Part shown: piece by piece, positions 1 to 57,090 of the stretch
Position numbering within the stretch: the stretch's first letter is position 1
Layout of the letters: every line of letters starts with the position of its first letter
From: Desulfuromonas sp.
GTDB lineage: Bacteria > Desulfobacterota > Desulfuromonadia > Desulfuromonadales > Geopsychrobacteraceae
Direction: 5' to 3'
NCBI GenBank assembly: GCA_002869695.1
Contig: PKUD01000092.1
Location: forward strand, 1 to 64,000
DNA: 64,000 nt
Program-made: the position numbers and the translations under genes
Notes under the pieces: generated by a model
Databases searched by the model: none
Told to the model about the DNA's origin: nothing
The model's input: only the letters and a program-made list of their open reading frames with translations

Positions 1-974
1 GCTGCAGTCCCGTATTCCCAGCCGGTCGTCCCATAGTAGCTGGCGGCTTCCAGGGTCGTTAAATCCGAGTCGAACTTGGCGACGTAGATGTCCTGATTAT
101 CCAGTTCATCCATGAATTCTTTAAAAACCCCGGCCGTGACCGGGAAATCTGCGGAACTGGTATAGCCGGTGATATAGACACTGCCGGTCGTCTGATTAAC
201 CGCAATGCCACTGCCGGACTCGTAACCACTGCCGCCAAAAAAGGTAGTGCGGACCAGCGGATCGATAACGAGCGGATAATCCGTGTCGTACTGGCCAACC
301 TTGAATCCGTAATTCTTGTCATCGGCCAGATAGCTGACCTTGACCGGAACCCGTTGCTGATCGATCTCCTGGTAGGCGACCGGCGCACTATAAGACAGGT
401 CACCAAACGAACTGTGCAGTTCCAGACTACCATCGCCGCTAACCGTCAAGCTGTCGATCCCGTCGATCGAGAGCCGGATCATTCCGGGATCAGCGCCCGG
501 CTGAATGATAAATATTTTCTCCGCAGATTGGGCTAACGGGCGCAGCTGAAAATCGATACCGGGATAAACATCGTTGATGCCGACCTTCTGCCAACTGGCC
601 AGGTTCTGTTGCCATTTTGCAGGTTCATCCCCTTTGAAATGATGAATCCGGGTTGGGGCAGAATCGAGGCCGACTGGTTTTGTGTTGGTTGCGCCGACAA
701 AATTTTCATGGATCGCCAGGACCGATTCCGACTCCGCATCTCTCAACCGGATAACCTGCTTCCCCGACCGGGTGACAAACAATGTGCTTCGGGAGGTCGT
801 GGAATAGAACGCCACGTCCGCATCGACCTGCCCCTCATTCTGCACAAAAGGCATCTGCACTGTGGCCGGCCCGCCGGTCTCTGCGACGATGGCCGCCTGT
901 GCCATGGGGTGCTGTAAAAAGACGAAACAGCTTGGAACAAGGATAAATGCCCAGACTATTTTGGTGATTTTCAT
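1..974 (-). CDS. Exported SBBP-repeat beta-propeller protein (3'-truncated by window edge)
   Basis: An open frame runs from an ATG at 974 (SD GGGAGG just upstream) to the window edge without a stop, giving 324 complete codons. Residues 1-28 form a signal peptide (MKIT, a hydrophobic core, then cleavage near AQA-A). Next comes a domain with the PFVQNEGQ motif, typical of the N-terminal domain (DUF7948-like) that precedes SBBP repeats. From about residue 235 a Ser/Gly/Thr-rich repeat begins (TTFFGGSGYESGSGIAV, then VYITGYTSSADFPVT), which is the SBBP beta-propeller signature. Such proteins are usually very long, cell-surface or secreted. The ligand and function are unknown. The gene stands alone behind its own promoter and riboswitch, so expression is probably tied to a cyclic dinucleotide. 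Confidence 0.88.
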   Translation of the reverse strand, partial: MKITKIVWAFILVPSCFVFLQHPMAQAAIVAETGGPATVQMPFVQNEGQVDADVAFYSTTSRSTLFVTRSGKQVIRLRDAESESVLAIHENFVGATNTKPVGLDSAPTRIHHFKGDEPAKWQQNLASWQKVGINDVYPGIDFQLRPLAQSAEKIFIIQPGADPGMIRLSIDGIDSLTVSGDGSLELHSSFGDLSYSAPVAYQEIDQQRVPVKVSYLADDKNYGFKVGQYDTDYPLVIDPLVRTTFFGGSGYESGSGIAVNQTTGSVYITGYTSSADFPVTAGVFKEFMDELDNQDIYVAKFDSDLTTLEAASYYGTTGWEYGTA

Positions 975-1002
975 GGTCGCCTCCCGAATCAAGATCCTCT
1001 CC

Positions 1003-1058
1003 CAAATAAAAAACGGCCGAACGCGCTTTCAGGATTTCTCCTTCGGCAGTTCGGCCGT
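1003..1058 (-). terminator. Riboswitch-controlled intrinsic terminator
   Basis: A perfect 10-bp stem (ACGGCCGAAC at 1058-1049 pairing with GTTCGGCCGT at 1022-1013) is followed by a run of six U on the minus strand. Its 5' arm is the same sequence that forms the 3' part of the upstream aptamer. Folding of the aptamer and of the terminator should therefore exclude each other: a ligand-bound aptamer would allow read-through into the SBBP gene (an ON switch). The stem and U-run are seen directly; the switching logic is inferred. Confidence 0.85.
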
Positions 1059-1126
1059 CTTGAGGACAAAGACGAGAGACCCGGAACTTTCCGTCCCGCC
1101 CTTGCGGACGGTTTGGTTTTATCGGG
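1036..1126 (-). ncRNA. GEMM-I family cyclic-dinucleotide riboswitch
   Basis: On the minus strand the leader has the GEMM-I landmarks in order: CAAACC, a short GCAA-capped hairpin, GGGACGGAAAG, a second variable helix, and GGCCGAACTGCCGAAGGAG as the 3' receptor part. It lies between a TTGACA promoter and a terminator preceding an exported protein, the usual setting for this class. The segment before AAACC is A-rich, with no G at the position that matches G20 of the c-di-GMP aptamers. Known cGAMP-binding Geobacter variants carry A there, but alignment by eye is ambiguous by one base, so the ligand is undecided. Confidence 0.72.
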
Positions 1127-1150
1127 AGCAGACGTTTCAACTTTTCTTAA

Positions 1151-1178
1151 AAACTAACACCTCTTTCGAACCTGTCAA
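1151..1178 (-). promoter_or_regulatory. Sigma-70 promoter of the riboswitch/SBBP unit
   Basis: The minus strand shows TTGACA (1178-1173), a 16-bp spacer and TAGTTT (1156-1151). This places the transcript start near 1144, just upstream of the aptamer and downstream of the tpx terminator. Confidence 0.6.
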
Positions 1179-21157: not shown

Positions 21158-21560
21158 TGGTCGAAGAAGTCCGTAAGCCGGGTCCTGTTCCCCGTCGCGG
21201 TTACCCCCGCCGGGGTGATGATCATTCATCTAGGACCGCCGTTGCCGACGGCCTCAAGCAGCCTAACCCGGAAACCTCGGACGGACCGCCCTCGAACGTT
21301 TCCCTATTCGGCCTTGCTCCGGATGGGGTTTACCGAGCTTCCGCCGTCACCGACGGAACTGGTGAGCTCTTACCTCACCCTTTCACCCTTACCACGTCTC
21401 CGCCGTAGCGGGGACGGGCGGTCTCCTCTCTGTGGCACTTTCCCTGGGGTCACCCCCGGTCCCCGTTAGGGACCATCCTGTCCTGTGGAGCCCGGACTTT
21501 CCTCTCCCCGCAGGCGTCCAAGACACCGGCAGGCAGCGATCATCTGTCCTTCTTCAACCA
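21158..21560 (-). ncRNA. rnpB: RNase P RNA, bacterial class A
   Basis: The minus strand contains the universal core GAGGAAAGTCCGGGCTCC near the 5' end, the second P4 part as GAGAGGAGACCGCC, and the 3' AACCCGGCTTACGGACTTC. The ends are set by helix P1, where TGGTTGAAGAAG pairs with CTTCTTCGACCA. About 400 nt is normal. The RNA is the catalytic subunit that trims tRNA 5' leaders. Confidence 0.97.
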
Positions 21561-23676: not shown

Positions 23677-23753
23677 TGGTGGGCCCACCAGGACTCGAAC
23701 CTGGGACCGACCGGTTATGAGCCGGTGGCTCTAACCAACTGAGCTATAGGCCC
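23677..23753 (-). tRNA. tRNA with CAU anticodon (Ile2 likely; elongator Met possible)
   Basis: A full cloverleaf with encoded CCA. The acceptor stem is GGGCCTA/TGGGCCC, the D-arm is AGCTCAGTTGGTTAGAGC, the anticodon arm is CCGGCTCATAACCGG, and the T-arm has GGTTCGAGTCC. The anticodon is CAU and the start is not that of an initiator. The overall sequence resembles tRNA-Ile2 genes (C34 converted to lysidine by TilS) more than elongator Met, but this is judged from memory. Confidence 0.93.
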
Positions 23754-31047: not shown

Positions 31048-32487
31048 TCAGCCAAACGTCCGATCAAGCTGAATACAATTTCGACCTTTTCGTTTTGCCT
31101 GATAAAGCGCCCGATCAGCACGCCTGAGGGTGTCCTTGAAGTCAGCCTCACTGGCATGCCACTGGGCGACACCAAAGCTTGCTGTCACCCGGGGAATTCC
31201 TGCAAAATCGCCGTGCACATCCTCGTCAAGCGCTTTTCTGATTTTTTCCGAACTGGCCTCCGCCCCGCGCAGATCGGTACCGGAAAGAATGACCAGAAAT
31301 TCCTCCCCCCCAAACCGACTGACAATATCAGTCTGGCGACAGAGTTGCCTCAAGGCAGAGGCGACCTGCTGCAAAACCAGATCACCCTTCTCATGGCCGT
31401 AGGAATCGTTGATCTCTTTGAAGTGGTCAAGATCCATTAGAACAAAAGAGAGGGGCAGTCCCTGTCGTTGCGCTTTCTTTATTTCGAGGTTGGCACTCTC
31501 AACGGCATGACGACGATTCGCCAGCTGCGTGAGGGAATCGGTCACCGCAAGTCGTTGCAACAACTCCCGGCTCAATCGCTGCTGTTGCTGTGCCCGGGCG
31601 GTCATAAAGGTCAGCAGCAAAAAGAGCCCCACAGCCGCTGCACCTGAGGCTGCAATCAGGGCCGAACTCTTGCGCCACTTAGCAAGAACAATATCTTCGT
31701 TGTAGGTCGCTGCCATCACCAGTGGATAGCCTTTGACCCGGAGCAGACTGATCCCGCGCATTTTGTCATCCAGCTCAGAAACAACCCGCATGAACGAATA
31801 TGATTCGACAGGGTCATTTATGAATCTGCCAATCTGCTTGCCCATCATCATCTGGTGGCCCGGCATGCGTGCATAAACTTCCCCCTCCGGGGACAGCATT
31901 GCGATTGTCTCACCCGGGGCGAGCCTCAGACCGGAGTAGTTTGAACGGAAATATTCCAGGTCGATGATGGCCACAATGACATGTTTCAGAGTTGCATCAC
32001 TCTCGCGAAAGGCATTGCTGGCTGCAAAGATCCACTGCCCCTTATTCACGCGCGAGGCAAGCGGTTTGCCGACAAACAGTCCCGGGACCTGTTCCAACTT
32101 GTGAACTCTGTAATAATCACGATCCTGAATTGAAGGAGGGGTCCCATCACCGGTCCAGTGGTCGATACGCCCGGCGGAATCTAGCACAAGCAGTGCAGTA
32201 ATAAAGGGATTTGAATCCAGAACGCCCTCTAAGACATGTCTGATCTGGATGGCATGAGGTTCGTATTCCTCTTTACAGTGACTATCCAGGACATTGTGTA
32301 TACCGAGAAAGATCTGGTTGAGACCGAACAGATACCTGTCCATATCCATGGCAAGGAAGTGGGTGAGGTCATCGACCCCGGAACGGGCCTCCCCCAACAC
32401 TGCGGTACGTCGGAGTGAAATTGAGTACCCGGTAAAAAATATCGTCACCAGGATACAGAATATTCCAAACGTCCAGATACGTTTCAC
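31048..32487 (-). CDS. Membrane diguanylate cyclase with Cache-type sensor
   Basis: A 479-residue protein. It has a membrane span (5-24), an extracytoplasmic PDC/Cache sensor (about 35-270, IQDRDYYRVHKLEQVPGLFVGKP), a second span (about 278-300) and a GGDEF domain (about 315-475). The active site is FGGEEF. An RQTD inhibitory site lies five residues before it, and the guanine-binding Asn and Asp are present in FKEINDSYGHEKGD. The retained Asp argues for ordinary c-di-GMP synthesis rather than a Hypr-type cGAMP enzyme. It is monocistronic with its own terminator and may supply the ligand pool for the riboswitch at 1036-1126. Confidence 0.94.
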   Translation of the reverse strand: MKRIWTFGIFCILVTIFFTGYSISLRRTAVLGEARSGVDDLTHFLAMDMDRYLFGLNQIFLGIHNVLDSHCKEEYEPHAIQIRHVLEGVLDSNPFITALLVLDSAGRIDHWTGDGTPPSIQDRDYYRVHKLEQVPGLFVGKPLASRVNKGQWIFAASNAFRESDATLKHVIVAIIDLEYFRSNYSGLRLAPGETIAMLSPEGEVYARMPGHQMMMGKQIGRFINDPVESYSFMRVVSELDDKMRGISLLRVKGYPLVMAATYNEDIVLAKWRKSSALIAASGAAAVGLFLLLTFMTARAQQQQRLSRELLQRLAVTDSLTQLANRRHAVESANLEIKKAQRQGLPLSFVLMDLDHFKEINDSYGHEKGDLVLQQVASALRQLCRQTDIVSRFGGEEFLVILSGTDLRGAEASSEKIRKALDEDVHGDFAGIPRVTASFGVAQWHASEADFKDTLRRADRALYQAKRKGRNCIQLDRTFG

Positions 32488-56965: not shown

Positions 56966-57090
56966 ATCGTCTTTATCATGAGTGGTGGAGGGAAAGGCCC
57001 TGCGAAGCCACGGCAGCCGGTCCGCGCAAGCGGACGTCCGGTGCCAATTCCTGCCCAGCCTTCATGTGAAGGCGGGACAGATGAGGACGG
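56966..57090 (+). ncRNA. SAM-I (S-box) riboswitch
   Basis: The S-box core is present in order: ATGAGTGGTGGAGGGAAAGG, CCCTGCGAAGCCACGGCAGCC, a P3 hairpin, GGTGCCAATTCCTGCCC and GGGACAGATGAGGACGG. P1 closes between CGTCTTTATC and GATGAGGACG with G-U pairs. It lies directly upstream of metX with a terminator between, so SAM binding should stop transcription. Confidence 0.92.

Follow-up and report, generated by a model that had tools for sequence, protein, structure and literature searches.

A probable cGAMP-responsive ON-riboswitch upstream of an exported SBBP-domain protein gene in a Desulfuromonas genome

Introduction

The closest described counterparts of the element reported here are cGAMP riboswitches of Geobacter. 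In G. metallireducens, the pilM riboswitch has been shown by experiment to be an ON-switch whose aptamer and terminator are mutually exclusive (PMC9262584). The cGAMP regulon of G. sulfurreducens includes multihaem cytochromes encoded behind tandem riboswitches (PMC6456294), and GSU1937, the second cGAMP synthase of this organism, carries a GGDDF motif (PMC8835794). A molecular-dynamics paper lists the ligand-contacting bases of the crystallised cGAMP riboswitch 4YAZ as G8, A9, A11, A12, A14, C15, G40, A41, A42 and C75 (PMC6274999). An A at position 20 biases the selectivity between cGAMP and c-di-GMP and is by itself no strict filter (PMC9262584); the OmcST riboswitch of Geobacter is promiscuous and responds to both ligands (PMC6456294).

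Here we describe a leader in the genome of a Desulfuromonas sp., located in a 64,000-nucleotide stretch of contig PKUD01000092.1 (hereafter the window). We consider it very probable that this leader, placed before a gene for an exported DUF7948/SBBP/CFI-box protein, belongs to the GEMM-Ib (3',3'-cGAMP) riboswitches and works as a transcriptional ON-switch. Computation shows the aptamer, the identity of its pocket, the strand sharing and its covariation, the cyclase gene and the target domains.

Results

Layout of the locus

The leader and its target gene, which starts at position 974, lie on the minus strand of the window and comprise the following features:

1151-1178, minus strand: probable promoter read from the sequence, with -35 box TTGACA (1178-1173), 16-nt spacer and -10 box TAGTTT (1156-1151)
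1041-1127, minus strand: GEMM-I aptamer with helices P1, P2 (GCAA tetraloop) and P3; union of the RF03167 and RF01051 matches
1117, minus strand: A in place of the G20 that specifies c-di-GMP, equivalent to A14 in the crystallised cGAMP riboswitch; from sequence, numbering of PMC6274999
1116 and 1091, minus strand: C21, adjoining A20, and its pairing partner G46; from sequence, numbering of PMC6274999
1089-1091, minus strand: pocket bases G46, A47 and A48 (G40, A41 and A42 in cGAMP riboswitch numbering); from sequence, the RF03167 alignment and PMC6274999
1046, minus strand: equivalent of C92 (C75), the expected partner of the ligand guanine; from sequence and PMC6274999
1048-1057, minus strand: shared strand, which is the 3' side of P3 in the aptamer and the 5' arm in the terminator; from folding, sequence and covariation
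1009-1061, minus strand: intrinsic terminator with extended stem 1061-1010, inner hairpin GGAGAAAUCC, perfect 10-bp core and U6 tract; from folding, sequence and shuffles
980-985, minus strand: ribosome-binding site GGGAGG; from sequence
1-974, minus strand: first 324 codons of the target, encoding signal peptide, DUF7948 and first SBBP region; from sequence and domain searches, continuing on contigs C33 and C107

The upstream neighbour on the same strand is an open reading frame (1816-1289) named peroxiredoxin-like from its sequence. It has a terminator-like inverted repeat of its own, read from the sequence near 1266-1226, and the leader therefore probably has its own promoter. A reading of the window made earlier from sequence alone (the sequence-only reading) had called this promoter complete. 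By consensus it is not complete and is the least well supported part of the leader: the TTGACA -35 box is perfect, the -10 box is weak, with three of six consensus matches, and a promoter scan of the window reported no promoter on the minus strand here. The weak -10 box would fit a decayed, non-functional leader, in which aptamer and terminator remain and the ligand response is gone. We consider such decay extremely improbable, given features of the pocket, helices and target described below.

Elsewhere, the window contains a SAM riboswitch (56970-57087, plus strand; RF00162, 71.8 bits), an RNase P RNA of class A (21159-21555, minus strand; RF00010, 292 bits) and a tRNA (23680-23753, minus strand).

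Aptamer family

Covariance models agree with the sequence-only reading that the element is a GEMM riboswitch; the lack of any match, which that reading had named as a refutation, did not occur. In a cmscan of the window, RF03167 (c-di-GMP-I-GGC) was the best-scoring model, matching 1126-1041 on the minus strand with 64.7 bits (E 5e-13), above its gathering threshold of 59. RF01051 (c-di-GMP-I), which that reading had named as the model to search with, is alike in fold and was the second model to exceed its threshold, matching 1127-1042 on the minus strand with 59.2 bits against a gathering threshold of 35. All model pairs are standard in the RF03167 alignment of the window RNA, with zero non-standard pairs. 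Hallmarks of GEMM-I (c-di-GMP-I clan CL00126) are present, including the GCAA (GNRA) tetraloop of P2, the stacking A47 (A at 1090) and C92 (C at 1046). Relative to RF01051, the window RNA has A20 in place of G20, and C21-G46 in place of the commoner G21-C46.

We rejected the c-di-GMP-I-GGC label for this RNA, as positions 20 and 47 are G in the RF03167 consensus and A in the window. Judging from these bases, the higher RF03167 score must reflect the scaffold and not the pocket. That score (64.7 versus 59.2 bits) would otherwise speak for a true c-di-GMP-I-GGC variant with an altered ligand preference of its own, which the two A residues make very improbable. Because the window lacks the pocket G20 and G47 of RF03167, we treated the element as GEMM-Ib, the cGAMP riboswitch subclass known from Geobacter, a well-supported assignment by sequence.

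Ligand pocket

Counted from the conserved CAAACC, Vc2 position 20 is an A in the window RNA (1117, minus strand), in line with the earlier suggestion that this base is as in cGAMP-sensing Geobacter variants. The RNA is identical to 4YAZ at 10 of 10 listed pocket positions, including the C15-G40 pair beside the ligand. The pocket suggests that the switch most likely senses cGAMP. Its full preservation also argues against a decayed leader.

Terminator and strand sharing

The terminator arms (1058-1049 and 1023-1014, minus strand) form 10 perfect pairs, followed by U6 (1014-1009), and the hairpin folded alone has an energy of -28.9 kcal/mol. None of 5000 dinucleotide shuffles of the leader yielded a perfect 10-bp arm with a T-run; the longest arm was 9, found once. 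A mechanical scan missed this terminator because it allows loops of 3-8 only. Aptamer and terminator both use strand 1057-1048, so the terminator does reuse the 3' strand of the aptamer, as proposed from the sequence together with an ON-switch design, and the layout is that of pilM.

When RNAs of growing length starting at 1135 were folded, the predicted minimum-energy structure was the aptamer for RNA ends between about 1044 and 1020, and the terminator once the end had reached 1016. The corresponding minimum energies were -34.4 kcal/mol for the aptamer (RNA end at 1020) and, for the terminator, -43.1 (end at 1016) and -49.3 kcal/mol (end at 1008); this folding was ligand-free and speaks to the competition between aptamer and terminator, not to a ligand response.

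Related leaders point the same way. In the 27 leaders with a C21-G46 pair, drawn from the source genome and from related ones, terminator arms fit the aptamer strand of their own leader more closely than they fit strands dealt from other leaders (score 197 versus 179.5 +/- 3.5 for re-fitted shuffles, with a maximum of 191 among 1000), and since the sequences are kin this score is to be read as support and not as a probability. The re-fitted control replaced an earlier one without re-fitting, since the arms had themselves been selected for their fit. Position 71 is an A in the window RNA only, and its partners in P3 (U51) and in the terminator arm are both U; one change has thus been compensated in both competing helices, which speaks against a decayed leader. 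Covariation in the 27 leaders thereby supports the predicted competition between aptamer and terminator.

GEMM-I elements and cGAMP synthesis in the source genome

We identified 20 GEMM-I elements in the source genome, 12 with G20 and 8 with A20 (the base of one, L015, was read by eye). The genome also contains one GacA-like receiver-GGDEF (Hypr GGDEF) gene, which adjoins hisS (C11:2373-3743). The best PDB match of the encoded protein is G. metallireducens GacA (6D9M), and the diagnostic Ser aligns to Ser. The source cell is thus predicted to encode a GacA-type cGAMP cyclase. A GacA orthologue is present in 40 of the 41 genomes searched, and each of the 27 that were parsed retains the Ser; co-occurrence of A20 aptamers and GacA was dropped as a test of the ligand, being uninformative when almost every sampled genome has GacA. 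A further GGDEF-like protein (C136:21566-21853; L037) has a GGDDY motif, and its Hypr position is occupied by GS; it resembles GSU1937 in outline and is a candidate second cGAMP synthase. The window itself contains a GGDEF domain gene (31078-31548, minus strand) with the canonical Asp at the Hypr position.

Two tandem A20 aptamers occur at each of C42:6604-6973 and C81:65100-65304 (L083, L085), each aptamer with its own overlapping terminator. Both tandem leaders precede MopE/multihaem cytochrome genes, whose products combine metal-binding motifs of MopE type with c-type cytochrome domains; these loci are likely core members of the cGAMP regulon and match the arrangement reported for G. sulfurreducens (PMC6456294). 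Another A20 leader of ON design precedes a gene for a DsrE-like protein.

These data bear on an alternative in which the window element is a GEMM-I ON-switch with c-di-GMP as its main ligand or as one equal to cGAMP, and in which A20 does no more than loosen specificity. With G20 in 12 of the 20 elements, c-di-GMP switches are common in this genome; a promiscuous switch of the same class exists in OmcST, and the Rfam model with the highest score describes a subfamily of c-di-GMP-I. We nevertheless find this alternative unlikely: all pocket bases, including the pair beside the ligand, are those of the crystallised cGAMP riboswitch, the GacA cyclase is present, and A20 members of ON design sit on Geobacter-like cGAMP targets. 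A cGAMP switch remains the preferred reading.

Two other leaders are of separate interest. An A20 aptamer with an OFF-like platform (C53:15060-15135; L011, L079) lies directly upstream of a gene for a receiver-GGDEF-EAL protein, through which cGAMP might act on c-di-GMP turnover. At C214:11191-11529 (L002, L003, L074), two G20 aptamers that are identical in sequence stand in tandem before a gene for a cadherin/Ig-repeat exported protein.

Pair orientation and platform type

We scored 117 leaders for platform type, the 20 GEMM-I leaders of the source genome and 97 of relatives; these were top-scoring matches and thus a biased sample. In the C21-G46 group (n=27), 24 leaders were called as having a terminator that overlaps the aptamer, and L019, among the rest, is a miscall caused by a tandem neighbour. 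In the G21-C46 group (n=90), 60 leaders have a separate downstream hairpin, 18 an overlapping one (some of them weak hairpins) and 12 are unclear. Position 20 varies between G and A within both groups, and a poorly supported aptamer tree scatters A20 members among G20 members. We did not find a link between 21-46 pair orientation and platform type stated in the cited literature, although it may be known to specialists.

A tentative interpretation, which we consider possible but rather less than probable, is that the order contains two GEMM-I lineages: C21-G46 elements with a shared strand (ON) and G21-C46 elements mostly with a separate terminator (OFF-like). With either ligand base found in both, a single cell could use cGAMP as well as c-di-GMP both to activate and to shut down genes, and the window would represent a lineage-specific surface protein plugged into a cGAMP ON circuit.

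Target protein

The target gene runs off the start of the window, where the contig ends, and its remainder lies on two further contigs, C33 and C107. Joined at the assembly level through exact 99-nt overlaps (window 1-99, C33 and C107), it would form an intact frame of 1526 codons encoding 1526 aa. The split over three contigs is probably a break in the assembly graph. An intact frame of this length is a further point against a decayed leader.

The protein contains a signal peptide (by inspection), DUF7948 (PF25778, E 7e-48), SBBP (PF06739, E 6e-9), choice-of-anchor U (NF041766, 76 bits) and CFI-box-CTERM (NF041770, 107.5 bits) domains, with a glycine run between the last two and a hydrophobic helix and basic tail at the C-terminus. 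The signal peptide and SBBP match confirm the proposed exported SBBP-repeat target; its description as a surface beta-propeller protein fits one part of what is, as a whole, a 1526-aa multidomain protein. These features suggest that the target is exported and probably anchored at the surface by its C-terminus, and we infer a role at the cell surface. An inverted repeat and then an apparent opposing gene follow the target gene, which is therefore probably monocistronic.

A search of 135 further genomes of the order for relatives of the target (E <= 1e-12) returned none, and these genomes gave no orthologous pair of leader and target either. Peptide patterns likewise found no target in a collection of named genomes that does not include the nearest ones. 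The lack of a relative in the 135 genomes implies that the target is lineage-specific or acquired. Its presence in the source genome alone within the order would also suit a decayed leader, the reading disfavoured above. The leader, for its part, belongs to the local GEMM-I family, though the gene is lineage-specific or acquired.

Discussion

We propose that transcription would start from the promoter near 1178-1151 and that the three-helix aptamer would fold first. If present, cGAMP, presumably made by the GacA-like Hypr GGDEF protein encoded elsewhere in the genome, would bind between A20, A47 and C92 and hold the P3 and P1 strands. The ligand-held strand 1057-1048 could then not pair with 1023-1014, no terminator would form and the target gene would be transcribed. 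In the ligand-free state, the terminator, being longer and more stable, would displace the aptamer once RNA polymerase had passed about 1016, and transcription would stop at the U tract. We infer from this design that the element works as an ON-switch in vivo.

The kinds of gene under probable cGAMP control would thereby come to include one for an exported SBBP protein with a probable C-terminal anchor, in a genome outside the Geobacter species that served to establish the GacA-riboswitch circuit. With 8 A20 and 12 G20 elements side by side, this genome is a good system for studying how two closely related second messengers stay apart and how a single base sets the choice between them.

Characterised cGAMP riboswitches are the nearest points of comparison. 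With the Gs1761 (pgcA) riboswitch of G. sulfurreducens and the cGAMP riboswitch of 4YAZ, the window RNA shares the base at every pocket position listed for the 4YAZ structure, a comparison that covers the pocket only, and a transcription terminator downstream (PMC6456294, PMC6274999). The target of Gs1761 is an extracellular cytochrome, unlike that of the window. The pilM riboswitch of G. metallireducens (PMC9262584) shares the GEMM-I scaffold of the cGAMP class. It controls a pilus operon, whereas the window switch precedes the gene for a DUF7948/SBBP CFI-box protein, and the two loci are not orthologous as far as tested. In both, the terminator is built from the aptamer-stabilising strand and downstream strands and excludes the aptamer, and pilM is an ON-switch.
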